Source: Frankia nepalensis (GTDB taxonomy: Bacteria > Actinomycetota > Actinomycetes > Frankiales > Frankiaceae). From it: 44,956 nucleotides of DNA. Position numbers and translations under genes: made by a program. Each line of letters starts with the position of its first letter. Position 1 is the first letter of the stretch. The notes beneath the pieces were generated by a model. It was not told where the DNA came from, ran no database searches, and worked only from the letters and a program-made list of their open reading frames with translations. This document shows, piece by piece, positions 9,335 to 29,571 of the stretch. The DNA lies in assembly GCF_016786325.1 (NCBI RefSeq), contig NZ_JADWYU010000112.1, forward strand, positions 1 to 44,956, given 5' to 3'.

Positions 9335-11218
<1,884 letters not shown>

Positions 11219-11236: not shown

Positions 11237-11260
11237 GGCAATCGGTTGCCAGCAGTTGCC
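11237..11260 (-). promoter_or_regulatory. Operator A of the proposed LacI regulon (uidA/lacI)
   Basis: Read on the minus strand, toward uidA, this is GGCAAC, 4 nt (TGCT), GGCAAC, then CGATTGCC. It is a direct repeat with a 10-bp period followed by an inverted TTGCC half. The inner 14 bp (GGCAATCGGTTGCC on the plus strand) form a near-perfect LacI-type palindrome. The same architecture recurs before uxaC and, in weaker form, before larA-like, lacZ and the transporter. Confidence 0.75.
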
Positions 11261-11300
11261 GTAGGCGTCGCGGAAACGTGCCGTGGGCTGCGGGTTCTCC

Positions 11301-11344
11301 GCGGGAACCAGTTGCCGCGATGGCCGCGGGCGCATACCGTTGCC
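11301..11344. promoter_or_regulatory. Additional operator half-sites before lacI
   Basis: Two further GTTGCC half-sites (11311-11316 and 11339-11344) lie between operator A and lacI. The first is preceded by GGGAACCA, a degenerate inverted partner. Their position suits autoregulation of lacI or cooperative looping with operator A. Weaker evidence than for operator A. Confidence 0.4.
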
Positions 11345-11433
11345 GCCCTAGGCCCCAGCCGAAGGGCACGCGGCGACGGCAAAGCCCCGTATGCCCGGAG
11401 GCTCTACGACCACGAGGCCTCGGGAGTCCAACG

Positions 11434-12501
11434 ATGGCAGACTTAAGCGCGCCGTCAGCACCGCGCGTTGTGACGATCTACGATGTGGCCCGAAGCGCGG
11501 GTGTTGCCGCCTCGACCGTCTCTCGCGCCTTCTCTCGCCCGGGTCGGGTGAACGCCGCGACCGCCGAACGCATCCGGCGCATCGCCGACGAGCTCGGCTA
11601 CCGCGCGAACCCGGTCGCGCGGGCGCTGTCCACCGCCCGCACCAACATGATCGCCGTGGTCATCCTGGACATCGCCAACCCCTTTTACGCGGAGATTGTC
11701 CGCGGCGCGCAGGCCGCGGCCGCGGCCGCCGGCTATACGGTTGTCCTGGCCGACGCTCAGGAGTCGGACCGGCTGGAGCGCTCCGCGCTGGAGCGCGCGG
11801 TGACCGCGGTGGACGGGATCGTCCTCGCAAGTTCCCGGATGTCCGACTCGGCCATCCGAATGATTTCCAAGCAGAAGCCGGTGGTGGTGCTCAACCGGGC
11901 GGTCGTGGATGTCCCGTGTGTGGTGACGGACAACGCACGCGGGGCGCGCCTCGCCTTGGAGCACCTCGGCGCGCTCGGGCACGACCACGTCACCTACGTC
12001 GCCGGGCCGGAGGCGTCCTGGGCGGACGGGATGCGCTGGCGGTCGTTACGGGAGGCGGCCGCCGAGCTGTCGCTCCGCGTCCGCCGGATCGGCCCTTTCG
12101 CTCCCGATGTGCCCGGCGGCATTCGTGCCGCCGAACAGCTGGCCGCCGCGCCGGTGTCCGCGGTGGTCGCCTACAACGACCAGCTGGCCATCGGCCTCGT
12201 CCAGGGCCTGGCCACCCGCGGGATACGGGTCCCAGGGGAGGTCAGCGTGATCGGCTTCGACAACATCGCCGCCGCGGGCCTCGTCACTCCCGGGCTCACG
12301 ACGGTGGCCGCGCCTCTCTATGCCCTCGGGGTTACGGCGACCCGGCACGTCCTTTCAATGATCGAGGGTGGTCGTGGTCACACTGGCCCGCCGGCTGTAC
12401 TGCCGGTACGCCTGATGGCCCGCTCCTCCACCGCCGAGCCATACCGTGTCACCTCTCCCCGCCGCCGTGAGCGAGCCGTGGCCGCCGCACCGCTGGCCTA
12501 G
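11434..12501 (+). CDS. LacI-family transcriptional repressor
   Basis: A 355-residue LacI/GalR regulator. The N-terminal helix-turn-helix and hinge are clear: TIYDVARSAGVAASTVSRAF, then a hinge region ADELGYRANPVARAL (about residues 12-65). The periplasmic-binding-like core follows, with NMIAVVILDIANPFYAEIVRG, VVAYNDQLAIGL and VSVIGFDNIA. ATG 11434 is chosen because it leaves 13 residues before the HTH; the frame is open upstream. It is divergent from uidA and convergent with the larA-like gene (3-base gap). The repeated GGCAAC-based elements near this gene and the other catabolic promoters are its likely operators. The inducer is probably a sugar or uronate from the pathway, which is an inference. 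Confidence 0.93.
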   Translation: MADLSAPSAPRVVTIYDVARSAGVAASTVSRAFSRPGRVNAATAERIRRIADELGYRANPVARALSTARTNMIAVVILDIANPFYAEIVRGAQAAAAAAGYTVVLADAQESDRLERSALERAVTAVDGIVLASSRMSDSAIRMISKQKPVVVLNRAVVDVPCVVTDNARGARLALEHLGALGHDHVTYVAGPEASWADGMRWRSLREAAAELSLRVRRIGPFAPDVPGGIRAAEQLAAAPVSAVVAYNDQLAIGLVQGLATRGIRVPGEVSVIGFDNIAAAGLVTPGLTTVAAPLYALGVTATRHVLSMIEGGRGHTGPPAVLPVRLMARSSTAEPYRVTSPRRRERAVAAAPLA

Positions 12502-12504
12502 CGT

Positions 12505-13830
12505 CTAGCGCAGCCGGAAGAGGATCTCGCCGGCGTCGGGGACGACGAACGTCGCCGGGTCGGCGTGCGCGGCGGTGACGTCCACCGCGGCCGGGTTCAC
12601 ATAGTCGAGGTTCACCGCGCGGACCACGTCCTCGGGAATGCCGGTCGCCAGGGTCACCCGCACCCGGCATCTTTCTCCGACAAGCTCGTCGTAGGTACCG
12701 GCGCCCCGCAGATGGGTGGAGTGAGCGAGCACGCCCCGAGGCACGTGCCGGTAGCGGTCCCACTGCTTCACGAAGTAGTCGCGGCAGTGGTAGCCGATGT
12801 CCAGGATCTCCGGATGCGTGCCGGCGACCTGCGTGATGTGCGGGGCGTAGAGGATGACCTCGCCGCCGTCGGCGACGACGGGCTCGAGCTTGTAGAAGCC
12901 CTTGGCCGCGGTCCAGATGTCGTCGTACTTCTCGGGCATGACGGCCAGCACCCGCTGGACGGGAGCGTCCAGATACTGGACGTGGGTCTCGGCGGAGACC
13001 TGCGCGGCCGCCGCCCATGCCGCCTTTGGCTCGCCGAAGGCCGCCGCGTGCAGCGCCCCGCTGCCGGACCGCGCCACGACGCAGAGCGCCAGGGTCGTGG
13101 CCGGGATCAGCGCCGCCGCCTCGTCGATGAGTGCGCGGACGGGCGTCGTCCCAGGTGTGCCGATGATGCCGGCGCTGGTGATCAGGGCGCCCAGCCAGTG
13201 GGAGAGGTCGATCACCTCCGGCCCCGCGACTCCGGGGAAGAAGTACTTGTTGCCGCCGGAGAAGCCCACGACCTCATGCGGGAAGACCGGGCCGACCACG
13301 AGGGCGACCTCGTGCTCCACGACGGCCCGGTTCAGCCGCACGGTCACGCTCTCGCGCAGCCGCCCCTGGGAAAGTTCCGCCACCCGCTTTGCGGGGATCG
13401 TGCCAAGGGAGACGAACGTCCGGGGATCCCACCACTCGTGGTTGTGGACGCTCATTCCCGGATAGCGGGCACCGATGTCCCCAGGTGGGTGGCCCAGGTG
13501 ACGGGCAAGCTGGGCCTCGGACATCGCCGCGTGAGTACCAAGCGCGACGAGCACGGTCAGCCGGCTCACCCGGCCGGCCAGCGCCCCGTGCACCGCCGAG
13601 AGCAGGAGTGGCAGCGGGCAGCTGCGGGTCCCGTCCGGGACGATGACGCAGACGCTCCGCCCCTCGAGGTCACACGCGTCGAGCTGGGCGTGGACGAACG
13701 CGGTGACCCGGTCCTCGGAGAGCGACTCGCCGACGCCTCCAAGAACCGCCACTGTGCCGGGTTGGAGGCAGCCCGGGGCGCTGGTTCCTGGAGCGGCTGG
13801 CTCCGCCGTGGGAGTGATGGTCGGGGCCAT
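12505..13830 (-). CDS. LarA-superfamily nickel-dependent hydroxyacid racemase/epimerase
   Basis: A 441-residue LarA homologue. Family motifs are PDGTR (about residue 66), ALGTHA and HNHEWWD. The cofactor-anchoring block PHEVVGFSGGNKYFFPG has Lys195 at the position that binds the nickel-pincer cofactor in lactate racemase. Members of this superfamily are known to act on lactate, malate, hydroxyglutarate, phenyllactate and gluconate (2-epimerase). It sits beside uronate isomerase and fructuronate reductase, while mannonate dehydratase is absent. I therefore infer a D-mannonate/D-gluconate 2-epimerase role. The cofactor enzymes LarB, LarC and LarE are not in the window and would have to be encoded elsewhere. 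ATG 13830 is preferred over GTG 13839, which would sit inside the likely ribosome-binding site. Confidence 0.85.
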   Translation of the reverse strand: MAPTITPTAEPAAPGTSAPGCLQPGTVAVLGGVGESLSEDRVTAFVHAQLDACDLEGRSVCVIVPDGTRSCPLPLLLSAVHGALAGRVSRLTVLVALGTHAAMSEAQLARHLGHPPGDIGARYPGMSVHNHEWWDPRTFVSLGTIPAKRVAELSQGRLRESVTVRLNRAVVEHEVALVVGPVFPHEVVGFSGGNKYFFPGVAGPEVIDLSHWLGALITSAGIIGTPGTTPVRALIDEAAALIPATTLALCVVARSGSGALHAAAFGEPKAAWAAAAQVSAETHVQYLDAPVQRVLAVMPEKYDDIWTAAKGFYKLEPVVADGGEVILYAPHITQVAGTHPEILDIGYHCRDYFVKQWDRYRHVPRGVLAHSTHLRGAGTYDELVGERCRVRVTLATGIPEDVVRAVNLDYVNPAAVDVTAAHADPATFVVPDAGEILFRLR

Positions 13831-13875
13831 GTCTCTCACCGTGCGCCGGGTCTACGGCCAAGACAAGGAGGTGAT

Positions 13876-13899
13876 GGCAACAGACGGCAACCCACGCTG
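13876..13899. promoter_or_regulatory. Operator C of the proposed LacI regulon (larA-like/uxaC)
   Basis: GGCAAC (13876-13881), AGAC, GGCAAC (13886-13891) repeats with a 10-bp period. The inverted third half is not conserved. It lies 45 bp before the larA-like start and before uxaC, in the divergent intergenic region. Confidence 0.6.
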
Positions 13900-13954
13900 T
13901 CACCGTCACCCGCGGTCGACCGCGCCGCCGCCACCACCGCGTCGCCATGGCAGA

Positions 13955-13978
13955 GACAACAGGTGGCAATCCATTGCC
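13955..13978. promoter_or_regulatory. Operator E of the proposed LacI regulon (uxaC)
   Basis: GACAAC (13955-13960), AGGT, GGCAAT (13965-13970), then CCATTGCC (13971-13978). It has the full direct-plus-inverted architecture of operator A. GGCAATCCATTGCC is a LacI-type palindrome about 30 bp before the uxaC ATG. Its presence argues against the in-frame start at 13947. Confidence 0.7.
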
Positions 13979-14009
13979 GCCCGTTTCGACAGGCCCCAAC
14001 GATGCCGCT

Positions 14010-15428
14010 ATGTCCGTCTCCGCCGGCCTGGTTCGGCATCCCGACCGGCTGTTGCCAGTAGAACCGAGTGTCCGCGCCATCGCCCGGCGGCTGTATGGCT
14101 CCGTCCGCGACCTGCCGATCGTGTCTCCGCACGGCCACGTCGACGCCCGGCTGCTCGCTGACGATGCGCCGTTCCCGGACCCGTCGGCGCTGCTGGTCAC
14201 TCCCGACCACTACGTGACCCGGTTGCTGCACGCCAGTGGCGTTCCGCTGGGCGATCTCGGTGTCGGGCGTGGGCCGCTGCCGGAGGAGGAGTCCAGGCGG
14301 GTCTGGCGCCGGGTCTGCGCGCGCTGGCACGTCTTCCGGGGCACGCCCGTCCGGTACTGGCTTGAGGCGGAGCTCGCCGAGGTCTTCGACGTCCAGGAAC
14401 GCCCCACCGCCGAGAACGCGGACGCGATCTACGACCAGGTCGCCACCTGCCTGGCCAAGGACACGTACCGCCCACGGGGCCTGTTCGAACGATTCGGCAT
14501 CGAGGTGCTCGCCACGACCGACGACCCGTGCGACGACCTTGCGCCGCATGCGCGGCTGGCCGCTGACCCTGCCTTCACCGGCAGGGTGCTGCCCGCCTTC
14601 CGCCCCGACCGCTACCTGGAGGCCACGCGGCCCGACTGGCTGGCGGCCGTCGCGCGGCTGGGCGAGGTCGCCGACACCGACACCGGCAGCTACCGCGGCT
14701 GGGTGGCGGCCATGGAACAGCGACGGGCCTACTTCGTCCGCCACGGGGCGACCTCGACCGACCACAGCCACGACGACGTCGGCACCGAGCCGCTCGCGGC
14801 TGCCGAGGCCGAGCGGATCTACCGCGCCGCGCTGACCGGGAACGCCACGGCGAGGGAGGGTGCCGCGTTGCGGCGGCACATGCTGCTGGAGATGGCGCGC
14901 ATGTCGTGCGACGACGGGCTGACGATGATGCTGCACCCGGCGGTGCGTCGCGGCCATCATCGACCGACGCTTACGGCCTACGGCCCGGACACCGGGCATG
15001 ACATCCCGATCCGCGTCGAGTTCACCGACGCGCTGCGGCCACTGCTGGAACGGTTCGGAACCCATCCGAACCTGCGCCTGGTGCTGTTCACCCTCGACGA
15101 GACGACGTACTCCCGCGAACTCGCCCCGCTGGCCGGCTTCTACCCGTCGGTCTACCTGGGGGCCCCCTGGTGGTTCCTGGACGCGCCCGACGCCGTGCTG
15201 CGCTTCCGCGCCGCGGTCACCGAGACGACCGGGTTCACCCGCACCGCGGGCTTTATCGACGACGCCCGCGGCTTCTGCTCGATCCCGGTCCGCCACGACA
15301 TGGCCCGGCGCCTCGACAGCGGCTTCCTCGCCCGGCTCGTCGCCGAGCACCGGCTGGACGAGGACGAGGCGCTTGACGTCCTCGCCGACCTCGTCACCGG
15401 CCGGCCGCGCGCCGTCTTCCGGCTGTGA
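14010..15428 (+). CDS. uxaC: Uronate isomerase (glucuronate isomerase)
   Basis: A 472-residue amidohydrolase-fold enzyme that isomerises D-glucuronate to D-fructuronate. The N-terminus HPDRLLPVEPSVRAIARRLY leads to the metal-binding SPHGHVDARLL (about residues 35-45). Further UxaC blocks are PVRYWLEAELAEVF, VLATTDDPCDDL, LPAFRPDRYLE and the C-terminal FYPSVYLGAPWWFLDAPDA and RGFCSIPVRHDMARR. ATG 14010 is chosen over the open frame upstream because it gives the normal family length and leaves operator E in the promoter. The stop overlaps the uxuB GTG (GTGA), so the two are coupled. It acts downstream of the beta-glucuronidase. Confidence 0.95.
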   Translation: MSVSAGLVRHPDRLLPVEPSVRAIARRLYGSVRDLPIVSPHGHVDARLLADDAPFPDPSALLVTPDHYVTRLLHASGVPLGDLGVGRGPLPEEESRRVWRRVCARWHVFRGTPVRYWLEAELAEVFDVQERPTAENADAIYDQVATCLAKDTYRPRGLFERFGIEVLATTDDPCDDLAPHARLAADPAFTGRVLPAFRPDRYLEATRPDWLAAVARLGEVADTDTGSYRGWVAAMEQRRAYFVRHGATSTDHSHDDVGTEPLAAAEAERIYRAALTGNATAREGAALRRHMLLEMARMSCDDGLTMMLHPAVRRGHHRPTLTAYGPDTGHDIPIRVEFTDALRPLLERFGTHPNLRLVLFTLDETTYSRELAPLAGFYPSVYLGAPWWFLDAPDAVLRFRAAVTETTGFTRTAGFIDDARGFCSIPVRHDMARRLDSGFLARLVAEHRLDEDEALDVLADLVTGRPRAVFRL

Positions 15429-16810
15429 CCGGCGCGGCGCGGCGGCTACGCCGCGACGGCCCGGCGGCGCCGGTCAGAATCGTGCACCTTGGCCTGGGCA
15501 GCTTCTTCCGCGCCCACCAGGCCTGGTACACCGACCGGGCGAGCGACGCGGACGGCTGGGGCATCGCCGCGTTCACCGGCCGGCGCCCGGACGTCGCCGA
15601 CGCGCTGGCCGCCCAGGACGGCCTCTACACCCTGGTGACCCGCGGCGCCGACACCGACGACTTCGCCGTGGTCCGTTCGGTTTCCCGGGCGTACCCCGGC
15701 ACTGACCACGAGGCGTGGCTCCACCACCTTGGCACCCCGGACGTGCGGGTTGTCACCCTCACCGTCACTGAGGCCGGCTACCGGCGCGGCGTGGGCGGCG
15801 GTCTCGACACCGCCGACCCGCGCATCGTCGCCGACCTCGCGGCGCTGCGCGCCGACCCAGCCGCCCCCGTCTCGTCGGCGCCCGCCCGCCTCGTGGCCGG
15901 CCTGCTGGCACGGCGGTACCGGGACGCCGGGCCGCTGACCCTCGTACCCTGCGACAACCTGCCAGGCGCCGGTTCCGTGCTGGCCGCCGCGCTGCGCGAT
16001 CTTGCGGCCGACGTCGACAGCAGCCTGCCCGTATGGATCGACGGGCAGATCCGTGTGGCGACGACGGTGGTCGACCGGATCACCCCCCGGCCGACCGACG
16101 CCGACCGGCGGGCGGTGCTGTCCGTCACCGGGGTGGACGACCGCGGCCCCGTGGTGACGGAGCCGTTCAGCGAGTGGGTGCTGGCGGGGGAGTTCCCTGG
16201 CGGGCGGCCCGCCTGGGAGAGTGCCGGGGCGGTGTTCACCGACGACGTCACCCCGTTCGAGGACCGCAAGCTCTGGCTGCTCAACGGAGCTCACTCGCTG
16301 CTGGCCTACGCTGGCCCGGCGCGAGGCCACGCCACCGTCGCCGAGGCCGTGGCCGACCCGGTCTGCCGCGGCTGGCTGGGTCAGTGGTGGGACACCTGCG
16401 GGCCGCACCTGGCGCTGCCGGCAGCGGATGTCGCCGTCTACCGGGAGGCGCTGCTCGCGCGGTTCGCCAACCCCCGGATCCGCCACGAGCTGGCGCAGAT
16501 CGCCGCCGACGGCTCGCAGAAGCTCCCCGCGCGCATCCTGCCCGTGCTGCGGCGCGAGCGTGCGCACGGCCGGCTGCCAGGCGTCGCCGTCACCGCGCTC
16601 GCCGCCTGGGTCGCGCACCTGCGGGGAGCCGGCCCGCCGGTCACCGACGTCCGCGCCGCCCAGCTCGTGCCGCTGGCCGCCGACGTCCTCACCGACGCCG
16701 TGCCCAGGCTGCTCGCGACCCTCGACCCGGCTCTGCCGGACGACGCGGACCTTGTCGGCGCCGTGAAGGTCCGAGCGTCGTCCCTCGCCGCTCGGGCGGG
16801 GGCGGCGTAG
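15425..16810 (+). CDS. uxuB: Fructuronate reductase (mannitol dehydrogenase family)
   Basis: A 461-residue long-chain polyol dehydrogenase that should reduce D-fructuronate to D-mannonate with NAD(P)H. The N-terminal Rossmann motif reads VHLGLGSFFRAHQAWYTD. The middle has PCDNLPGAG and VVDRITPRPT. The C-terminal catalytic block KLWLLNGAHSLLAYAG (about residues 282-297) carries the conserved Lys, Asn and His. A role as uxuB rather than mannitol dehydrogenase is inferred from the coupled uxaC. The GTG start overlaps the uxaC stop by 4 bases. The next pathway enzyme, mannonate dehydratase (UxuA), is not encoded here. Confidence 0.9.
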   Translation: MTGAARRLRRDGPAAPVRIVHLGLGSFFRAHQAWYTDRASDADGWGIAAFTGRRPDVADALAAQDGLYTLVTRGADTDDFAVVRSVSRAYPGTDHEAWLHHLGTPDVRVVTLTVTEAGYRRGVGGGLDTADPRIVADLAALRADPAAPVSSAPARLVAGLLARRYRDAGPLTLVPCDNLPGAGSVLAAALRDLAADVDSSLPVWIDGQIRVATTVVDRITPRPTDADRRAVLSVTGVDDRGPVVTEPFSEWVLAGEFPGGRPAWESAGAVFTDDVTPFEDRKLWLLNGAHSLLAYAGPARGHATVAEAVADPVCRGWLGQWWDTCGPHLALPAADVAVYREALLARFANPRIRHELAQIAADGSQKLPARILPVLRRERAHGRLPGVAVTALAAWVAHLRGAGPPVTDVRAAQLVPLAADVLTDAVPRLLATLDPALPDDADLVGAVKVRASSLAARAGAA

Positions 16811-16862
16811 ACCAGATGCCGGGGCCGGCGTGCTCGACGGCTCGGCAGGCCACAGGGTCGGT

Positions 16863-16886
16863 AGGCAACTGGCGGCAACCGCTTGG
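16863..16886 (+). promoter_or_regulatory. Operator B of the proposed LacI regulon (lacZ)
   Basis: GGCAAC (16863-16868), TGGC, GGCAAC (16874-16879 after one base overlap adjustment), then CGCTTGGT, a degraded form of the inverted TTGCC half. It shares 10 of its first 16 bases in order with operator A as read toward uidA, and lies in the 133-bp gap before lacZ. Position suggests a second regulated promoter inside the uxaC-galK run. Confidence 0.6.
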
Positions 16887-16943
16887 TACGACGGGCAGGT
16901 GTGCGGGCCAATGAGGTCGGGTCAACGTGGATCGAGAGGTGAC

Positions 16944-19900
16944 ATGACCAGGACCGACTTCACCGCGCTGCCGGCCGACGACTCCGGGTTCAACGCCCTT
17001 GGGCGGCTGCCCATGCACGCGCTGCGGCGGGCGCCCGAGGTCGAGCTCGACGGCACGTGGGAGTTCCAGCTCCTCGACAGCCCGACCGCGCCGATCAGCG
17101 AAACCTGGAAGACCGTGGAAGTGCCCGGCCTATGGACCATGTGGGAGGACGCCGACCCGCCGCACTACACCAACGTCCAGATGCCGTTCGACGACATGCC
17201 GCCGCGTGTGCCCGCGCGCAACCCCACGGGGATCTACCGGCGCTCCTTCGAGCTGCGCCCGGCCGAGGGCCGCCGCGTCGTGCTGCACGTCGGCGCCGCC
17301 GAGGGACTGCTGCGGGCGTTCGTGAACGGGCGTCCGGTCGGGGTCAGCGCCGACTCGCATCTGGCAGCCGAGTTCGACGTCACCGAGGCATGCGCGGCGA
17401 GCCCCGCTGGGCCGCACACGGTCGAGCTGGTGGTATCCAAGTGGTCGTCGGTCTCCTACCTGGAGGACCAGGACCAGTGGTGGCAGTCGGGCCTGTCCCG
17501 CTCGGTGTACCTCTACACCGTGCCGGAGACCCGGCTGGCCGACCTCACGGTCGTCGCCGACTTCGACCCGGCCACCCGGCGCGGTGCGCTGCGCGTCGAG
17601 GTGTCCACCGCCGGGCTGGAATACCTGGACGAGGGCGGCTGGTCGATATGCGTCGACGTCCTCGGCCGTGACGAGACCGTGCCGGTCGCCCCGCGCCGCC
17701 CCGCGCCGCGGCTCCCACCACTCACGGACGACCGGACGAGCCGACCGGCGACGATGATCCCGCCCGACCTCATGGACCTGCCGTCGCTGCTCGCCGCGGA
17801 CGCCCCCATCCCGCCGGCCTGGGTGCCGGCGGCTCCGATGATGCGCCAGTCCCTCGCGCCGGCGCCCGTGGCCGGGACCGCCGTCCTCGACCTCGACGAC
17901 CTGGCCGTCGAGCCCTGGTCGGCGGAGAACCCTCACCTGGAGGAGATCGTGGTCCGGCTCGCGGGGCCGGACGACACCGTCGTGGACGAGGTTGCCACGC
18001 GGGTCGGCTTCCGCCGGGTGCGGGTCGAGGGCCGCGACCTGCTGGTCAACGGTCGGCGGATCCTGGTCCAGGGCGTGAACCGGCACGACATCGACCCCAG
18101 GACCGGGCGTGTCGTCACGGCGGAGCGGATGCTCGCCGAGCTGTCGCTGCTTAAGCGATTCAACGTCAACGCGATCCGCACGTCGCACTACCCGAATGAC
18201 CCGCTCTTCCTCGACCTCTGCGACGAGATCGGTTTCTACGTGGTCGACGAAGCGGACATCGAGGCCCACGCCTTCGCCCCCGCGGTCTGCGACGACCCGC
18301 GCTACCTGCCAGCCTTCCTCGAGCGGGTGTCGAGGATGGTGCTGCGCGACCGCAACCACCCGTGCGTCATCGCCTGGTCCCTGGGCAACGAGACCGGCTA
18401 TGGCGCGAACCACGACGCCGCGGCCGGCTGGCTGCGCCGCTTCGAGCCGACCCGGCCGCTGCACTACGAGGGTGCGATCTCGCTGGACTGGCACGGCGGG
18501 CACGCCGCGACCGACCTCGTGTGCCCGATGTACCCGTCATTCGAGAGCCTGGCGGCGTACTGCGCCGACCCGCGCGCGGACCGGCCCGTCATCCTGTGCG
18601 AGTACGCGCACTCCCAGGGCAACTCCACCGGCGGCCTCGCCGACTACTGGGACCTGTTCGAGACGCTGCCCGGCCTGCAGGGCGGCTTCCTCTGGCAGTT
18701 CACCGACCACGCCCTCGACCCCGACGGCGACGGCCGGTACCGCTACGGCGGCGACTTCGGCGACGTACCCAACGACGGGACCATATTGCTCAACGGAGTC
18801 GTCTTCGCCGACCTCACGCCCCAACCCGCCCTGTACGAGGCGCGCGGCCTGTTCAGCCCGGTGCGGATCGTCTCCGACGCCGCGGCGGCGCTCGCCGGGA
18901 CCGTCACGATCCGCAACCGTCAGACGTTCAACGACCTGAGCGCCTACACCTTCGAGCTTCACGTGGAGACCGGCGAGCCACCGGACCCTGTGGCCATAGA
19001 GGTGGGCGAGGTCCCCGCCGGAGCGGCGGCGACTGTCGACCTCCCCGAGGCGGTCCGCGAGCAGCTCAAGACATCGTCGTCGCCGCCGCTGGCCCTGACC
19101 CTGACCGCGCGGACCAGGAACGCCGCGCGGTGGGCACCGGCGGAAACGGCCGTCGCCATCCACCAGGTGGTTTTTCCGCGTCCCGCGCCGCCGGTCGCCA
19201 CGGCCGTGCCCGCCGCGCTTCCCGAGGACGGCGACGGGGAGCTCGCGCACCCGCTGCTGCGGGCCGCGCCACGCCTGTGCCTGTGGCGGGCGCTCACCGA
19301 CACCGACCGGTCCTTCGCGCTCGACCAGCGTTTCGTCCGCTCCGGCTTCTTCCGGCTCACCCCGGCGAGCGTCACCGTCGAGGCGGCCGGGAAGGGCCTG
19401 GTGGTCGCCACCACCGTCTACCGCACCGCGTTCGACACGGAGATCGTGCACCGCCGCGAGATCGTCGCCCTCGCCGAACCGGGCCGGCCGTTCGCCGAGT
19501 ACCAGCTCACCGAGCAGGTCCGCCTGCCCGACGACACCGAGGACGCGCTCCGGGTGGGTGTCGAGTTCGAGCTGGTCGACGGCTTCGACGAGGCCCGATG
19601 GGTGGGCCTCGGGCCGTGGGAGAACTACCCGGACCGCCGCGCGTCCGCCCTGCTCGGCCACTGGCGCAGCCGGATCGACGACCTCGCCGTGCCCTACGTG
19701 TGGCCACAGGAGAACGGCGGGCGCGGCGAGGTCACCGAACTGCGACTGACCGGCCCCGCGGGCACGGTCAGCACCATCCACGAGACCCCGCTGCAGATGG
19801 CCGTGAGCCGCTACCGCGTCGAACAGTTCGAAGCGGCGCGGCACTGGTGGCGGCTCCCGCCCAGTGGCGCCACGGTGGTGCACCTCGACGTCGCGCATCG

Positions 19901-20012
19901 CGGGCTGGGGACCGCCGTGGTCGGTCCCGACACCCGGCCCCGGCACCGGCTGACCGGTCACGAGTACGCCTGGGTATGGCGCCTGCGCCTCGAGGCGACG
20001 CCACCGCGCTGA
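16944..20012 (+). CDS. lacZ: LacZ-type beta-galactosidase (GH2)
   Basis: A 1022-residue, five-domain GH2 enzyme hydrolysing terminal beta-galactosides. The sugar-binding domain has NPTGIYRR and YLEDQDQWW. The TIM barrel has GVNRHDIDPRTGR, NAIRTSHYPND, acid/base Glu483 in SLGNETGYG and nucleophile Glu553 in ILCEYAHSQGNSTGG. The small C-terminal domain has GLGPWENYPDRRASA and QENGGRGEV. Residues about 248-310 form a Pro/Ala-rich insertion in the second domain that E. coli LacZ lacks. There is no signal peptide, so it is cytoplasmic. The start is ATG 16944, preceded by GAGAGG. galT and galK downstream would take the galactose onward. Confidence 0.95.
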   Translation: MTRTDFTALPADDSGFNALGRLPMHALRRAPEVELDGTWEFQLLDSPTAPISETWKTVEVPGLWTMWEDADPPHYTNVQMPFDDMPPRVPARNPTGIYRRSFELRPAEGRRVVLHVGAAEGLLRAFVNGRPVGVSADSHLAAEFDVTEACAASPAGPHTVELVVSKWSSVSYLEDQDQWWQSGLSRSVYLYTVPETRLADLTVVADFDPATRRGALRVEVSTAGLEYLDEGGWSICVDVLGRDETVPVAPRRPAPRLPPLTDDRTSRPATMIPPDLMDLPSLLAADAPIPPAWVPAAPMMRQSLAPAPVAGTAVLDLDDLAVEPWSAENPHLEEIVVRLAGPDDTVVDEVATRVGFRRVRVEGRDLLVNGRRILVQGVNRHDIDPRTGRVVTAERMLAELSLLKRFNVNAIRTSHYPNDPLFLDLCDEIGFYVVDEADIEAHAFAPAVCDDPRYLPAFLERVSRMVLRDRNHPCVIAWSLGNETGYGANHDAAAGWLRRFEPTRPLHYEGAISLDWHGGHAATDLVCPMYPSFESLAAYCADPRADRPVILCEYAHSQGNSTGGLADYWDLFETLPGLQGGFLWQFTDHALDPDGDGRYRYGGDFGDVPNDGTILLNGVVFADLTPQPALYEARGLFSPVRIVSDAAAALAGTVTIRNRQTFNDLSAYTFELHVETGEPPDPVAIEVGEVPAGAAATVDLPEAVREQLKTSSSPPLALTLTARTRNAARWAPAETAVAIHQVVFPRPAPPVATAVPAALPEDGDGELAHPLLRAAPRLCLWRALTDTDRSFALDQRFVRSGFFRLTPASVTVEAAGKGLVVATTVYRTAFDTEIVHRREIVALAEPGRPFAEYQLTEQVRLPDDTEDALRVGVEFELVDGFDEARWVGLGPWENYPDRRASALLGHWRSRIDDLAVPYVWPQENGGRGEVTELRLTGPAGTVSTIHETPLQMAVSRYRVEQFEAARHWWRLPPSGATVVHLDVAHRGLGTAVVGPDTRPRHRLTGHEYAWVWRLRLEATPPR

Positions 20013-23889: not shown

Positions 23890-24456
23890 CCGTGGCTCCG
23901 TCGACGGAACGACTCCCCGCTGGATCACCTGATCGGCGCATTGGTGCTGGAGCCGTCGGCGCACCGTTCGTGTCCGTGCTGGCGAAGTGCCCGTCCCCGC
24001 CCACCGCGGTGCGTCGCCCGACGCGCCTGACCGACGCCTCGGGTCGCCCGGCCACCCATGACTCGCCGCACACGAGCCCGCGGGCGCTGGCAACTCCTGG
24101 CAACATCTCGTTCACCGCGGTGACGAACCCCAGTATGGCGAGGTGAGCACCGGCCGCCCACTCGTTCCCGTACCACGATCTCTTTTCTCTCGGCGGGCTC
24201 CAGCACCGGTTCTGTCCTCGTGGGCTGGTCGTCGGCGGGCTCATATGTTGGTGCGGCCGGGACACGGTGGACCAACCCGAACGGCCCGCCTTCCGCTGAA
24301 AGACGAGCAGCGGCCCTCCACCCTCTCGATCACGCCGCGCGGGCGTGGACGCATCTTGGTCACCACGGCGATCCGCCGCTCGCGATTACCTGTATTTGCG
24401 GAGAGTTGTATGAAGAAGAACGCCGCCGGTTCCCCCCGTTCTGATCGGCTCCGGCC
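23890..24456. other. Intergenic stretch before the transporter operon
   Basis: No convincing gene was found over 567 bases. It contains operator D (24089-24112) and an AT-richer patch (about 24370-24420) that could hold the transporter promoter. Confidence 0.6.
24089..24112 (+). promoter_or_regulatory. Operator D of the proposed LacI regulon (transporter operon)
   Basis: GGCAAC (24089-24094), TCCT, GGCAAC (24099-24104) repeats with a 10-bp period as in operators A, B and C. The inverted third half is not conserved. It lies about 345 bp before the transporter start, suggesting that transport and rhamnosidase genes share control with the uronate/galactose genes. Confidence 0.5.
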
Positions 24457-26697
24457 TTGAGCCGATCATCCGCTTCGGTGCCGAGCGTCCCCGAGGCGGC
24501 GAACTCCGCGCCGTCGACGGCGGCCGGTCTGGCCTCCGGGTTGATCGCGGCGGAGGCCGAGCGCCAGCAGCGGCAGGCGGATGCGCAGCGTGAGGTGCTG
24601 TTCGCGGACGAGCTGCTGCCAGGGGTCGGAGATGAGCGGCTGTCGCTGCGTGAGGGCCTTGCCGCGGGCGGTTCACTGACCTTCACGACGCTGGTGGTGT
24701 TGTCGGCGCTTGACGAGCTGGAGTCGGCGTCGGTGTCGGTGCTGTCGCCGGAGATCCGGGACGCGTTCGGGATGAGCGACGGGATGATGGTGTTCGTCGC
24801 GTCGGCGTCGAGCGCGTTCCTGGTGCTTGGCGCGTTGCCGATGGGCTGGCTCGCTGATCGGTATCGCCGTAGCCGGATCATCGGGTGGGCCGGCGCGGTC
24901 TTCTCCGTCATGGTGTTCGCGAGCGGGTTCGCGGCGAACGCTCTGTTGTTCTTCCTGGCTCGGTTCGGCGTGGGGATCGCGAAGTCAAGCAACACCACTG
25001 CGCACGTATCGCTGTTAGCCGACACCTATCCGATAGGCGTGCGAGGGCGTATCTCGGCGTTCACCTACGGCGCCGCGCGGATCGCGGGCACCATCAGTCC
25101 GCTGGTCGTGGGCGGTATCGCCACGTTGGCCGGTGGCGAGGACGGCTGGCGGTGGCCGTTTATCATCCTGGGTCTGCCCGCGTTGGCTGTGGCGCTGTGG
25201 GCGTTTAGACTTCCCGAGCCCCCGCGTGGTCAGCACGAGATGAAATCGGTGCTGGGAAATGTCATCAAGGACGAGAATCCGCTGCCGATATCGATGGAGT
25301 CGGCGTTCGCGCGGTTGATGCGCATCCACACGGTCAAGAGCGCGATCCTGGCCTTCTCTGCCCTGGGGTTCGGGCTTTTCGCGACAGGTATTCTGGGAAG
25401 CCTGTGGGCAGAGGACCACTACGGTATGTCAGCCTTCCAGCGTGGCCTCATGGGCACGTTGGGTGGCGTAGCACTGTTGTTTACCCTACCGGTGGTAGCG
25501 CCGCGATACGACCGTCTGTACCACCGGGATCCGGCAAAGGCGCTTCGCCTTCTGGGCCTTTGCATCCTTCCGGCCTCGGTGCTGCTGCCAATCCAGTGGT
25601 TCATGCCGAACTGGATCGCCTTCATGATAGCGGGCGTCCCCGCCGCGGCGCTGTCCTCCGTGGCGTTCGCCATGATAGGTCCGATCATGCAGTCGATCGT
25701 CCCGTACCGCCTGCGTGGCATGGGCGTGGCGCTCGGCGCGGTCTACGTCTTCTTCATCGGCGGAACCGGCGGTGCGGTGCTCGCCGCCCTGCTCGCCGAT
25801 GCCTACGATCCGCGGGTGGCCGTGCTGGTCATCGGGATTCCGTCGCACGCGCTCGGCGGCTATCTGCTGATCCGTGGGGCGTCCTTCATCAGGAACGACC
25901 TGTCGCTGGTGGTGGCCGACCTGCGCGAGGAACTCGCGGAACACGACCGTCAGCAGGCGGATCCGGCGAACATCCCGGTCTTGCAGGTCAATGACATCGA
26001 CTTCTCCTACGGGCACGTGCAGGTGCTCTTCGACGTCGGATTCGAGGTCAGGCGGGGAGAGACCCTGGCATTGCTGGGCACGAACGGCGCCGGCAAATCG
26101 ACCATCCTGAAGGTGATCTGCGGTCTCGGCACGCCCTCGAGAGGGGTGGTGCGGCTGAACGGCCGGACGATGACCTATGTACCTCCCGAGCAGCGGGGCC
26201 GATACGGCGTGCACCTGCTGCCGGGCGGAAACGGCGTGTTCCCGGCGATGACGGTCCGGGAGAACCTGGAGATGAGCGCGTTCCGGATGCGCCGGGACGG
26301 CGCCGACCGCGACCGCCGGTTCGCCTACGTGCTCGACCTGTTCCCCGACCTGGCAAGCCGGCTGGGGCAGCAGGCGGGGTCGCTGTCAGGAGGGCAGCAG
26401 CAGATGCTCGCGCTCGCGGCGGTCCTCCTGCATGACCCCGAGGTGCTCCTGATCGACGAACTGTCGCTGGGACTGGCGCCGGTGGTGGTACAGGACCTGC
26501 TCGCCGTCCTGGAGCGGCTCAAGAACGACGGTCTGACGATCATCGTGGTGGAACAGTCGCTGAACATCGCGCTGGCGATCGCCGATCGGGCGGTGTTCCT
26601 GGAGAAGGGCCAGGTCCGCTTCGTCGGACCGGCCCGCGAGCTGGCTGAACGCGACGACCTGGCACGCGCGGTGTTCCTCGGCCGGGAAGGCGGCTGA
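24457..26697 (+). CDS. MFS-type membrane domain fused to a LivF-type ABC ATPase
   Basis: A 746-residue fusion. After a hydrophilic tail (1-70), residues about 75-480 look like a 12-helix major facilitator protein, with the loop signature GWLADRYRRSRIIG. Residues about 505-746 are an ABC ATPase of the LivF type: VLQVNDIDFSYGHVQVL, Walker A LLGTNGAGKST (about 539-549), signature LSGGQQQ, Walker B VLLIDELSLGLAP and the LivF ending VEQSLNIALAIADRAVFLEKG. The frame is uninterrupted, so the fusion is real in this sequence. The next gene supplies LivH, LivM and LivG, so the ATPase probably completes that transporter. The start is uncertain: TTG 24457 or GTG 24478, neither with a good ribosome-binding site. 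Substrate unknown. Confidence 0.85.
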   Translation: MSRSSASVPSVPEAANSAPSTAAGLASGLIAAEAERQQRQADAQREVLFADELLPGVGDERLSLREGLAAGGSLTFTTLVVLSALDELESASVSVLSPEIRDAFGMSDGMMVFVASASSAFLVLGALPMGWLADRYRRSRIIGWAGAVFSVMVFASGFAANALLFFLARFGVGIAKSSNTTAHVSLLADTYPIGVRGRISAFTYGAARIAGTISPLVVGGIATLAGGEDGWRWPFIILGLPALAVALWAFRLPEPPRGQHEMKSVLGNVIKDENPLPISMESAFARLMRIHTVKSAILAFSALGFGLFATGILGSLWAEDHYGMSAFQRGLMGTLGGVALLFTLPVVAPRYDRLYHRDPAKALRLLGLCILPASVLLPIQWFMPNWIAFMIAGVPAAALSSVAFAMIGPIMQSIVPYRLRGMGVALGAVYVFFIGGTGGAVLAALLADAYDPRVAVLVIGIPSHALGGYLLIRGASFIRNDLSLVVADLREELAEHDRQQADPANIPVLQVNDIDFSYGHVQVLFDVGFEVRRGETLALLGTNGAGKSTILKVICGLGTPSRGVVRLNGRTMTYVPPEQRGRYGVHLLPGGNGVFPAMTVRENLEMSAFRMRRDGADRDRRFAYVLDLFPDLASRLGQQAGSLSGGQQQMLALAAVLLHDPEVLLIDELSLGLAPVVVQDLLAVLERLKNDGLTIIVVEQSLNIALAIADRAVFLEKGQVRFVGPARELAERDDLARAVFLGREGG

Positions 26698-26703
26698 ACG
26701 GCC

Positions 26704-29571
26704 ATGGAGATACCCACCACGCAGGTGTTGTTCGACGGCGCCGTCACCGGTCTGGTGATCGGCCTGCTGGCAGTCGGGATCGTGCTCGTGTACCGCTCGA
26801 CCCGAGTCATCAACTTCGCTGTGGCGAACATGGGCCTGGTCGGCTCCGTGCTGTTCGCGCTCCTCGTAGTCCGCTACAACGTGCCGTACTGGGTCGGCCT
26901 CCCCATCTCACTGCTGGCGGGGGCAGTGTTCGGGGCCGTCGTGGAACTGGTCGTGGTGCGCCGACTGTTCACCGCCCCACGAGTGATCGTCCTGGTCGCC
27001 ACCATCGGGGTTTCCCAACTCGCGCTCATGATCGTCACGGCGTATCCGGACCTAAAGGACTACGCCGACCGGTCCTATCCCGTGCCTTGGGGAGGGCGGT
27101 GGTCTCCGCTCAGCGGCCTGCAGGTCACCGGTGCACAGATCAGCATCCTCGTGGTCGTTCCGCTGATCACGACCTTGCTGGCGCTGTTCCTGAGCCGCAC
27201 GGTGCTCGGAAAGACCGTGAAGGCATCGGCGGACAATCCCGAGCTCGCCCGCCTGCGGGGCATCAATCCGAAGATTGTCTCCGCCGTCGTGTGGACGGTG
27301 GCGGGTTTCATCGGCACTCTGTGTCTGATCCTGATCTCCGCGCAGAACGCGTCACTGGCGCAGATCACCACGCTGGGACCGACCACTTTGCTTCGGGCGC
27401 TGGCCGCCGCGGTGCTCGCCCGGATGGCCTCGCTACGTGTCGCGCTGGCGGCCGGGGTGGGACTGGGTATCGGGCAGTCGTTCATCCAGTTCAACTGGCT
27501 CGACCAGCCAGGTCTGACCGACGCCGTCATCCTGCTCCTGGTCCTCGGCGCGGTGTTCTTCGTCAGCCGTGGACGCGAGACTGAGACCTCGTCGTTCTCG
27601 TTCGCGCCGAAGGTCCGGCCGATCCCCGAGCGCCTACGCGAGATGTGGTGGGTCCGCCACCTCGAACGTGCCCCGTTGCTGGTCCTCGGGCTGTCCGCGC
27701 TCTTCCTGCCGCTGGTGATCACCCAGCCTTCCCGGCACCTGCTCTACACGATCATCATGGCCTACGCCATCTGTGCCACCTCCATCACCATCCTCACCGG
27801 CTGGGCCGGCCAGCTCTCCCTGGGCCAGATGGCCTTTGCCGGGCTGGGCGCGCTCACGACGGCGACACTGGGCCGCGGGCTGCGCTTGGAGATCGGCAGT
27901 GTCACGGTGGCTGTCAACCCGCTGCCATTTCCCGCCGCCGTGCTCACCGCCGCCGTGCTCACCGCTGCCCTGGCCGCAGTGATCGGTACGGGCGCGCTAC
28001 GGGTACGGGGACTGCTGCTCGCGGTCAGCACCTTCGCGTTCGCGATCGCCGCCGAACAGTTCCTCTACCGGCGCGAGATCTTTCACGACGAGGGGTCGAC
28101 CACCGCGTCACTTACTCGCGACTCTGTCTTCGGCCTCGACGTCTCGTCCCAGCGCGCCTACTACTACGTGGTCCTGACCGTTCTCGCCGTCGTGCTGGCC
28201 GTCGTGGCCCGCCTGCGCAGGTCCGGAATCGCCCGAACCACCATCGGGGTACGGGACAACCCAGCCGCGGCGGCTGCCTACACCGTTGTGGGCACCGGGG
28301 TGAAACTGCGCGCTTTCGCGCTCGCCGGGGGGCTGGCGGGCCTTGGCGGTTCTCTGCTCGCCGGAGCCGTGCAGGCCGTCCCGTATACGGACAGGTACTT
28401 CCTCAGCAACGACTCCCTCGTCCTGGTCTCCATCGTGGTCATTGGTGGTCTCGGCTCGGTCTACGGTCCCGTGCTTGGCTCACTGTGGGTAATCGGCCTG
28501 CCGTCCTTCATGCCCAACAACGAACTCGTCCCGCTGCTGACGTCCAGCCTGGGCCTGCTCATCCTGCTCCTATATTTCCCAGGGGGCCTGATCCAGGTCG
28601 GCTATGCCGCCCGCGACGCCGTCCTTGCCTGGGCTGACCGGCGGCTCGGGGAGGCACCGCCGGTCAAGACCGTCACCTCCGCGGCCGTGGTGCTCACCCA
28701 TGGCACGCGCGACCCGGCTCCGGCCGGCCAGCCCGTCCTGACCGTCCAGGACGTCCGCGTCCGCTTCGGCGGCCGAGCCGCCGTCGACGGTGTCTCCCTG
28801 GAGGTCATGCCTGACGAAATCGTCGGGCTTATCGGCACCAACGGCGCGGGAAAGTCGACGTTGATGAACGCCATCGGCGGCTTCGCTCCCGCTACGGGCA
28901 CGGTGACGCTCCTCGGCCAGGACGTCTCCCGGTCCTCTCCGGAGAAACGAGCGCGCGCGGGACTCGGCCGCACCTTCCAGGCCGCCACCCTCTTCCCCGA
29001 GCTCACCGTTCGCCAGACCGTCCAGGTCGCCCTTGAGGCTCGGATTCGGACCGGGTTCCTTGCCACAGCGCTCCACCTTCCCCACACATTTCGGGCCGAA
29101 CGAGCAAAACGCGCCGAAGCGAACGAGCTCATCGACTTTCTTGGTCTCGGCCGCTACGCCGACGCCTTCATCGCGGACCTCTCCACGGGTACGCGGCGCA
29201 TCGTCGAACTCGCGGGGCTGCTCGCCCTCGATGCCCGGGTCCTATGCCTAGACGAGCCGACTGCCGGCGTCGCCCAACGGGAGACAGAGGCGTTCGGTCC
29301 TCTGCTCCAGGAAATCCGCCGTGAACTCGGCGCAGCGATCCTCGTCATCGAACACGACATGCCACTCGTCATGGGTATCAGTGATCGCGTCTACTGCCTC
29401 GAGATCGGCAGGGTCATCGCCTCTGGCCCACCCGACGCCGTCCGCGGCGATCCCAAGGTCATCGCCAGCTACCTGGGCACCGACGAGCGCGCCATCCAAC
29501 GCAGTGGAACGTCCCAGACGGCCGTCGAGACGAATGACGGATTCTCCGCCGGTGCCACGGTCGTGCTGTGA
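26704..29571 (+). CDS. LivH-LivM-LivG triple fusion: ABC permeases plus ATPase (HAAT family)
   Basis: A 955-residue protein joining three normally separate subunits. Residues 1-290 are a LivH permease (GLVIGLLAVGIVLVYRSTRV, FAVANMG). Residues about 320-640 are a LivM permease (SITILTGWAGQLSLGQMAFA, and the cytoplasmic EAA-like VRDNPAAAAAY). Residues about 677-935 are a LivG ATPase with Walker A LIGTNGAGKST and Walker B VLCLDEPTAGVAQ. The LivG signature is unusual, LSTGTRRIVELA rather than LSYGQQR. A 15-bp tandem repeat (27934-27963) duplicates AAVLT in the LivM part. It starts 6 bases after the MFS-LivF gene and is followed by a binding lipoprotein. The three genes can thus form a complete importer from three polypeptides. 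The HAAT family takes amino acids, but context suggests a glycoside or aglycone. Confidence 0.9.
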   Translation: MEIPTTQVLFDGAVTGLVIGLLAVGIVLVYRSTRVINFAVANMGLVGSVLFALLVVRYNVPYWVGLPISLLAGAVFGAVVELVVVRRLFTAPRVIVLVATIGVSQLALMIVTAYPDLKDYADRSYPVPWGGRWSPLSGLQVTGAQISILVVVPLITTLLALFLSRTVLGKTVKASADNPELARLRGINPKIVSAVVWTVAGFIGTLCLILISAQNASLAQITTLGPTTLLRALAAAVLARMASLRVALAAGVGLGIGQSFIQFNWLDQPGLTDAVILLLVLGAVFFVSRGRETETSSFSFAPKVRPIPERLREMWWVRHLERAPLLVLGLSALFLPLVITQPSRHLLYTIIMAYAICATSITILTGWAGQLSLGQMAFAGLGALTTATLGRGLRLEIGSVTVAVNPLPFPAAVLTAAVLTAALAAVIGTGALRVRGLLLAVSTFAFAIAAEQFLYRREIFHDEGSTTASLTRDSVFGLDVSSQRAYYYVVLTVLAVVLAVVARLRRSGIARTTIGVRDNPAAAAAYTVVGTGVKLRAFALAGGLAGLGGSLLAGAVQAVPYTDRYFLSNDSLVLVSIVVIGGLGSVYGPVLGSLWVIGLPSFMPNNELVPLLTSSLGLLILLLYFPGGLIQVGYAARDAVLAWADRRLGEAPPVKTVTSAAVVLTHGTRDPAPAGQPVLTVQDVRVRFGGRAAVDGVSLEVMPDEIVGLIGTNGAGKSTLMNAIGGFAPATGTVTLLGQDVSRSSPEKRARAGLGRTFQAATLFPELTVRQTVQVALEARIRTGFLATALHLPHTFRAERAKRAEANELIDFLGLGRYADAFIADLSTGTRRIVELAGLLALDARVLCLDEPTAGVAQRETEAFGPLLQEIRRELGAAILVIEHDMPLVMGISDRVYCLEIGRVIASGPPDAVRGDPKVIASYLGTDERAIQRSGTSQTAVETNDGFSAGATVVL

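Follow-up and report, generated by a model that had tools for sequence, protein, structure and literature searches.

The window analyzed here is one whole contig (C379) of 44,956 nucleotides from Frankia nepalensis, the genome of which measures 10.7 Mb, is assembled in 398 contigs and is 96.8% complete. It carries a gene cluster for the use of β-glucuronides in which a homologue of LarA lies divergent from uxaC. This protein is likely a GntE-type nickel-pincer enzyme that converts D-mannonate to D-gluconate, in place of the mannonate dehydratases UxuA and ManD in glucuronide breakdown. The gene order is uidA (-), lacI (+), larA (-), uxaC (+) and uxuB (+), followed by genes for a glycoside hydrolase family 2 (GH2) β-galactosidase and a GH1 glucosidase, galT, galK and a transporter operon. 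The first 5 genes are as follows:

9335-11113, minus strand: uidA, β-glucuronidase (GH2); NF007538, 895 bits, cut-off 544
11278-12501, plus strand: LacI-family regulator; Pfam LacI, 51 bits, cut-off 27
12505-13839, minus strand: larA homologue, GntE-type, predicted D-mannonate/D-gluconate 2-epimerase of 444 amino acids; Lar_N domain, match to 4nar in sequence and fold
13947-15428, plus strand: uxaC, glucuronate isomerase; NF002794, 530 bits, cut-off 387
15425-16810, plus strand: uxuB-like reductase, predicted to convert D-fructuronate to D-mannonate; Mannitol_dh domains

A first-pass annotation of this DNA had identified uidA and uxaC, both of which score above curated cut-offs, and had placed a LarA-superfamily gene divergent from uxaC, which is right in its coordinates as well as in its family (Pfam Lar_N at residues 52-216, 75.6 bits, cut-off 23.3). 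Its assignment of uxuB holds as far as the mannitol dehydrogenase family and the gene context go, but the protein passes no NCBIfam equivalog cut-off: the top models are D-arabinitol dehydrogenase (247 bits) and fructuronate reductase (230 of 603 bits), both far below theirs. Because the best models fall so far below cut-off, the name UxuB rests on family and context.

Family, residues and predicted fold of the LarA homologue

A sequence search of the Protein Data Bank gave 4nar as the best match (212 bits, E 1.6e-61), and the next, a broad lactate racemase, reached 28 bits. The 4nar entry is GntE2 (LarAH20) of Thermotoga maritima, which has been shown to interconvert D-mannonate and D-gluconate and to act on free D-mannonate with a kcat of 197 per s (PMC7583248). 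An AlphaFold model of the LarA homologue was built from 34 sequences (mean predicted local distance difference test score 89.6). Foldseek matched this predicted fold to 4nar with an E of 3.7e-39, and structure comparison returned a Z of 47.7 over 403 residues at 33% identity, the next entry having a Z of 34.9. As judged from sequence and modelled fold, GntE2 is the closest solved relative, which agrees with the earlier remark that the superfamily includes gluconate 2-epimerases interconverting these 2 acids.

In the alignment to 4nar, the LarA cofactor residues R75, K184 and H200 (LarA numbers) correspond to R72, K198 and H214 of the window protein, and the catalytic D72, H108, H174 and K298 to D69, H103, H188 and K313. 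Read by hand, the same alignment pairs R72 with R41, E189 with E155, K198 with K164 and H214 with H180 of GntE2, and contains 3 exchanges, S156 in GntE2 vs V190 in the window protein, G286 vs A312 and N348 vs G369. Ten residues (D69, R72, H103, H188, E189, V190, K198, H214, W309 and K313) are invariant, with the host's protein included, in the 34 sequences and in an alignment (A2) of 16 of the 18 class-sample larA hits described below, from which the partial G049 and the weak G360 were excluded. Groups 18-20 of the LarA homologues are described as carrying an E-V/S loop after the catalytic His and a W in helix 11 (PMC7583248); the window protein has E189-V190 and W309 at these places and thus bears the GntE signature.

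The first-pass proposal hung on the host having the cofactor genes larB, larC and larE, and all 3 are present above cut-off: larB with 237 bits (cut-off 175), larC with 189.5 bits for LarC1 (cut-off 90) and 112 bits for LarC2 (cut-off 50), and larE with 273 bits (cut-off 150). The first 2 lie together on contig C356 and larE lies approximately 26 kb away on the same contig. By its sequence, with the Lar_N domain, the residues and these 3 genes all in place, the protein is assigned to the LarA superfamily. The gluconokinase that the proposal also called for is encoded on contig C360 by a GntK-type gene (TIGR01313, 167 bits in the genome search and 169 bits on the protein, cut-off 113.75). Separately, the host has a second LarA homologue (G000 contig C162, L028 144-1724, minus strand) of the LarAH14/15/16 family (NF052592, 908 bits, cut-off 740), in which, by eye, Asn seemingly stands in place of the second catalytic His; the lar cofactor genes may serve both homologues.

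Mannonate dehydratases and LarA homologues in related genomes

That no UxuA is encoded near the cluster had been noted before, and this extends to whole genomes: UxuA (PF03786) was found in 0 of 35 genomes of the family, host included, by a search that detected it in E. coli, B. subtilis, T. maritima and 2 more of the 14 control genomes. A ManD query, the ManD of the relative G020 (694 bits vs the equivalog cut-off of 550), had no match in the host at 1e-10. With neither of the 2 families found, a mannonate dehydratase missed in the host was rejected. The earlier remark that no 2-keto-3-deoxygluconate (KDG) kinase is nearby also stands, none being among the window proteins scanned or read; a genome-wide search was not made. 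Within the family, G020 and G034 alone have full-length ManD matches (61% identity to the query in G034), and G020 has uidA, uxaC and uxuB homologues on the same contig as manD. Weak partial matches at 29-38% identity in G009, G017, G018, G019, G020, G021 and G026, of which G017 and G018 are larA genomes, were taken for other enolase-superfamily proteins.

UxaC is encoded in 8 of the 35 family genomes. Six of these have a larA orthologue, those outside the host being 71-84% identical to the window protein, and the other 2 are the genomes with full-length ManD, so that in this family UxaC is always accompanied by either larA or ManD and never by both. All 6 larA genomes but one (G029) have larA divergent from uxaC. 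LarC and LarE exceed their cut-offs in all 6 and GntK does so in 5; in the sixth (G018) an FGGY kinase gene, whose best model is gluconokinase at 469 of 648 bits, adjoins uxuB. GntK is present also in family genomes without larA.

In a sample of 393 genomes of the class, in which at most 4 candidates per genome were scored with the larA profile, 18 genomes matched, 17 of them strongly; the excluded one (G360, 105 bits, 29% identity) has UxaC and no UxuA found. UxuA was over cut-off in 20 genomes, which are the ones counted here (2 below it, G235 and G254, are without larA), and UxaC was present in 53. None of the 17 larA genomes has UxuA, and larA and UxuA occur together nowhere in the sample, whereas 14 of the 17 also have UxaC (Fisher p 6e-11, without correction for relatedness); UxaC and UxuA coincide in 11 genomes. 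Within the 53 UxaC genomes, 2.9 overlaps of larA and UxuA would be expected if the 2 were independent and none was seen (chance 0.02, shared descent ignored). Neither strong larA nor UxuA is present in 28 of the 53, the 2 ManD genomes of the family among these. Gene neighborhoods in the sample include larE and larC beside larA and uxaC-uxuB (G095), larE and larB directly after larA (G246), a 6-phosphogluconate dehydrogenase gene tail to tail with larA (G316; TIGR00872, 391 bits, cut-off 297) and an FGGY gluconokinase-like gene between uxaC and larA (G228).

A scan of GTDB genomes gave 586 relatives, of which the best 80 were kept as named loci. Neighbors were sought within up to 10 kb on each side; as 23 of the 80 loci span less than 21 kb, the counts are lower bounds. 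Some genomes are shared with the class sample, and the 2 samples were not summed. The genera include Geodermatophilus, Blastococcus, Modestobacter, Kribbella, Actinoplanes, Nocardia, Cellulomonas and Knoellia, and all 80 record titles are actinobacterial except L193 (a metagenome-assembled genome, Acidobacteria) and L177 (labelled only bacterium). UxaC is encoded near larA in at least 47 loci, UxuB in at least 49, either in at least 53, both in at least 43 and UidA in at least 18, and uxaC is divergent from larA within 700 bp in at least 34. Cofactor genes are likewise close by (LarE in at least 32, LarC in at least 30, LarB in at least 29, any of them in at least 34), as are genes for gluconate use: an FGGY gluconokinase-like protein in at least 16 (15 of the 16 matches at 40% identity or more, L192 at 25%), GntK in at least 6, Gnd in at least 11, and a gluconokinase or Gnd in at least 27. 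Nine of these neighbors (4 FGGY, 4 Gnd and 1 GntK) were checked with profiles; all 4 Gnd proteins exceeded the gnd cut-off and all 4 FGGY proteins scored best with gluconokinase, below its cut-off. UxuA was found near larA in 0 of the 80 loci. Because each of the 3 UxuA references finds other UxuA loci at 34-79% identity, this is not the result of a dead query. The ManD query, which detects the 61% identical G034 gene, found 1 of the 80 loci (L143). The Kribbella loci L126, L128, L137, L144, L145, L147, L148 and L151 have the same larA and no uronate, gluconokinase or gnd gene in reach.

Operators, regulator and neighboring genes

We built a 22-bp operator matrix from 11 sites of relatives (G017, G018, G029, G032 and G033) that share CAACnnnnGGCAAnnnnTTGCC or near variants. 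These sites lie in the uidA promoter and in that of uxaC/larA or uxaC; G029 has a further one before a transporter gene. Training excluded the window's own sites, three GGCAAGCGCTTyCC sites (G017, G032) and the G020 sites (matrix score no higher than 17.9). Since the training sites had been selected by means of a palindrome noticed in the window, the matrix core and the window are not fully independent. The matrix marked the following sites, the third of them at a further gene:

11237-11258, minus strand: operator between uidA and lacI; matrix score 33.4, exact palindrome
13957-13978, plus strand: operator between larA and uxaC; matrix score 34.2, exact palindrome
16866-16887, plus strand: operator downstream of uxuB, ahead of the β-galactosidase gene; matrix score 25.6
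16830-20012, plus strand: GH2 β-galactosidase; Pfam Glyco_hydro_2_C and Bgal_small_N, with operator

Across 40 Markov-random sequences of window length the top score was 16.8, and chance matches were rejected on this ground. The operators that the first-pass annotation had described as shared are thus well supported by the matrix at larA/uxaC and uidA/lacI; the bare palindrome GGCAAnnnnTTGCC makes a weaker case, as its 4 window matches with up to 1 mismatch were equalled by 3 of 100 shuffles. Of the 5 occurrences of the palindrome in the 10.7-Mb genome, 2 are in the window; a reversed control pattern occurs 13 times. The exact copies elsewhere, all on other contigs, reach no more than 10.8 with the matrix. 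We infer that the neighboring LacI-type protein binds these operators and represses, because of its position and because homologues with 74-88% identity are present in the clusters of 3 relatives (G017, G029 and G033).

For lacI an in-frame ATG at 11434 is the likelier start. The in-frame ATG at 14010 is likewise the likelier start of uxaC, because on inspection the operator sits between both candidate starts. The β-galactosidase gene probably belongs to the same regulon, and its true start is likely later than listed because the listed open reading frame begins ahead of the operator. Two weaker operator-like sequences were also seen, a broken one at 13878-13899 (score 12.3) and a one-sided one at 24091-24112 before the transporter operon (score 9.7, within the random range).

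Downstream, a run of glycoside hydrolase genes at 16830-38627 (GH2, GH1, GH78 and GH3 by Pfam and, by eye, another GH78-like gene at 35883) together with galT and galK resembles a plant-glycoside catabolic island, perhaps for flavonoid glycosides. The gene at 24457-26697 (+) encodes a 746-amino-acid protein in which a major facilitator superfamily (MFS) transporter is fused to an ATP-binding cassette (ABC) ATPase domain, a fusion that seems unusual; the G029 counterpart, which has an operator ahead of it, is 70% identical. In the protein of the following gene (26704-29571), an ABC ATPase is combined with permease domains of the branched-chain type.

The proposed route, its rivals and known systems

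In the route that we propose, UidA would free D-glucuronate from glucuronides, UxaC would isomerize it to D-fructuronate and the UxuB-like reductase would yield D-mannonate, which the LarA homologue would epimerize at C2 to D-gluconate. The unlinked gluconokinase would then form 6-phosphogluconate, which would enter the pentose-phosphate pathway. The nickel-pincer cofactor, the product of LarB, LarE and LarC, would be bound by K198 and H214. As in LarA, for which proton-coupled hydride transfer is described (PMC7583248; PMC12611868), it would take the C2 hydride while H103 and H188 alternate as base and acid. Comparative genomics supports the alternative to the Ashwell pathway, from mannonate through gluconate to pentose phosphates, that had first been suggested for this locus. 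Replacement of the mannonate dehydratase is further supported by the swap for ManD in 2 relatives and by the gluconokinase and gnd neighbors elsewhere. More broadly, actinobacteria probably have in the nickel-pincer epimerase a third solution for the mannonate step, one that generally excludes UxuA and ManD and sends glucuronide carbon by way of gluconate and 6-phosphogluconate rather than KDG; D-mannonate would then be the native substrate of the actinobacterial GntE group.

Several observations weigh against this interpretation. The LarA homologue is below every NCBIfam equivalog cut-off, and NCBIfam does not name its substrate: the top model, NF052594 (LarAH18 putative nickel-dependent hexonate epimerase), gave 159 bits vs a cut-off of 500. 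The only actinobacterial relative known to have been assayed, GntE1 of Corynebacterium glutamicum, has a Michaelis constant (KM) of 120 mM for mannonate; its authors doubted that mannonate is native and, owing to the high KM, left the native substrate of this group open (PMC7583248). Among the genomes, 3 of the 17 larA genomes of the class are without UxaC, and 22 of the 80 named loci, Kribbella included, lack uronate, gluconokinase, gnd and uidA genes within the stretch examined. Locus L143 has ManD (59% identity) as well as larA and, by eye, a 2-keto-3-deoxy-6-phosphogluconate-type aldolase and a sugar kinase beside ManD. G029 has larA at 1.73 Mb and uxaC, unlinked to it, at 6.94 Mb, and around its larA no operator site exceeds the random range. 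No site of 8 or more was found in the stretches taken for host gntK, larB, larC, larE and the second larA, which by the matrix test therefore lie outside the regulon. Finally, the kinase next to ManD in G020 (L050 3085-4863) is of the GntK type (TIGR01313, 175 bits), which is odd for a KDG route.

Of the rival explanations, it is unlikely that the LarA homologue acts on a different acid of this cluster, such as an aldarate or uronate (at C5, next to the carboxylate), or on altronate. The authors partly suggested as much for the related group 19, given the high KM of GntE1 and its uronic-acid context (PMC7583248), and the Kribbella loci without uronate genes in reach are in line with it. However, mannonate would then have no known exit in the 6 family genomes without UxuA or full-length ManD, and the gluconokinase and gnd neighbors point to gluconate. 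Slightly less likely again is an order with the kinase first, known from Lactobacillus suebicus extracts: mannonate would be phosphorylated to 6-phosphomannonate, which the LarA homologue would epimerize to 6-phosphogluconate. The FGGY proteins examined in relatives' clusters have gluconokinase as their best model, at scores under its cut-off, and could be mannonate kinases; yet no sugar-acid kinase was seen in the host cluster, and the closest proven relative, GntE2, uses free D-mannonate at the rate given above (PMC7583248). An ordinary lactate-type racemase located there by chance would also have a Lar_N domain, but is highly improbable and was rejected, since the loop is E189-V190 rather than the F-F reported for lactate racemases (PMC7583248), the fold is nearer to GntE2 and the gene co-occurs with uxaC.

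If epimerization of mannonate is indeed the task of the LarA homologue, it gives a nickel enzyme group of uncertain substrate a testable native role, and glucuronide growth in these bacteria would depend on nickel and on larB, larC and larE. One NAD(P)H would be consumed at UxuB and one recovered at 6-phosphogluconate dehydrogenase, with KDG bypassed, and pathway tools that seek only UxuA or ManD with KdgK would score these genomes as incapable of glucuronate use.

Both the enzyme type and the mannonate-to-gluconate route are already published (PMC7583248, PMC6978723, PMC3750489), so the proposal is less new than the first-pass annotation supposed; PMC6978723 credits the route to Rodionova et al. 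2012, and an oomycete GntE is also described (PMC11770544). Titles and abstract openings in the open-access papers searched name no LarA homologue in an actinobacterial glucuronate cluster, except for the uronic-acid context of group 19 in PMC7583248; an acI-lineage genome paper (PMC5301498) contains the words glucuronate and mannonate. The present analysis adds that the epimerase is the only enzyme found for the mannonate step in the 6 larA genomes of the family and that it occurs without UxuA in all 17 of the class.

The window protein resembles GntE2 in its fold, its cofactor and catalytic residues and the E after the catalytic His, and differs at the 3 hand-read positions given above. The GntE2 gene shares a uronate operon with gnd, uxaE, uxaD and gntK (PMC3750489). 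Unlike the window, this operon is described as serving galacturonate, and T. maritima keeps uxuA (PMC3750489; our UxuA control search), whereas the searches of the Frankia genome detected neither UxuA nor ManD and its cluster, beside a LacI-type regulator, serves β-glucuronides. GntE1 (LarAH19) of C. glutamicum is, by its published description, likewise actinobacterial, of uronate context and active on D-mannonate (PMC7583248). The L. suebicus route similarly links mannonate from the isomerase pathway to 6-phosphogluconate but in a different order, with a mannonate kinase and then a 6-phosphomannonate epimerase (PMC6978723). With the Ashwell pathway, which relies on UxuA or ManD, the predicted route would have the UxaC and UxuB steps in common, the mannonate dehydratase being replaced by the epimerase, and the gluconokinase that a Thermotoga-type mannonate-to-gluconate route requires is present in the host.

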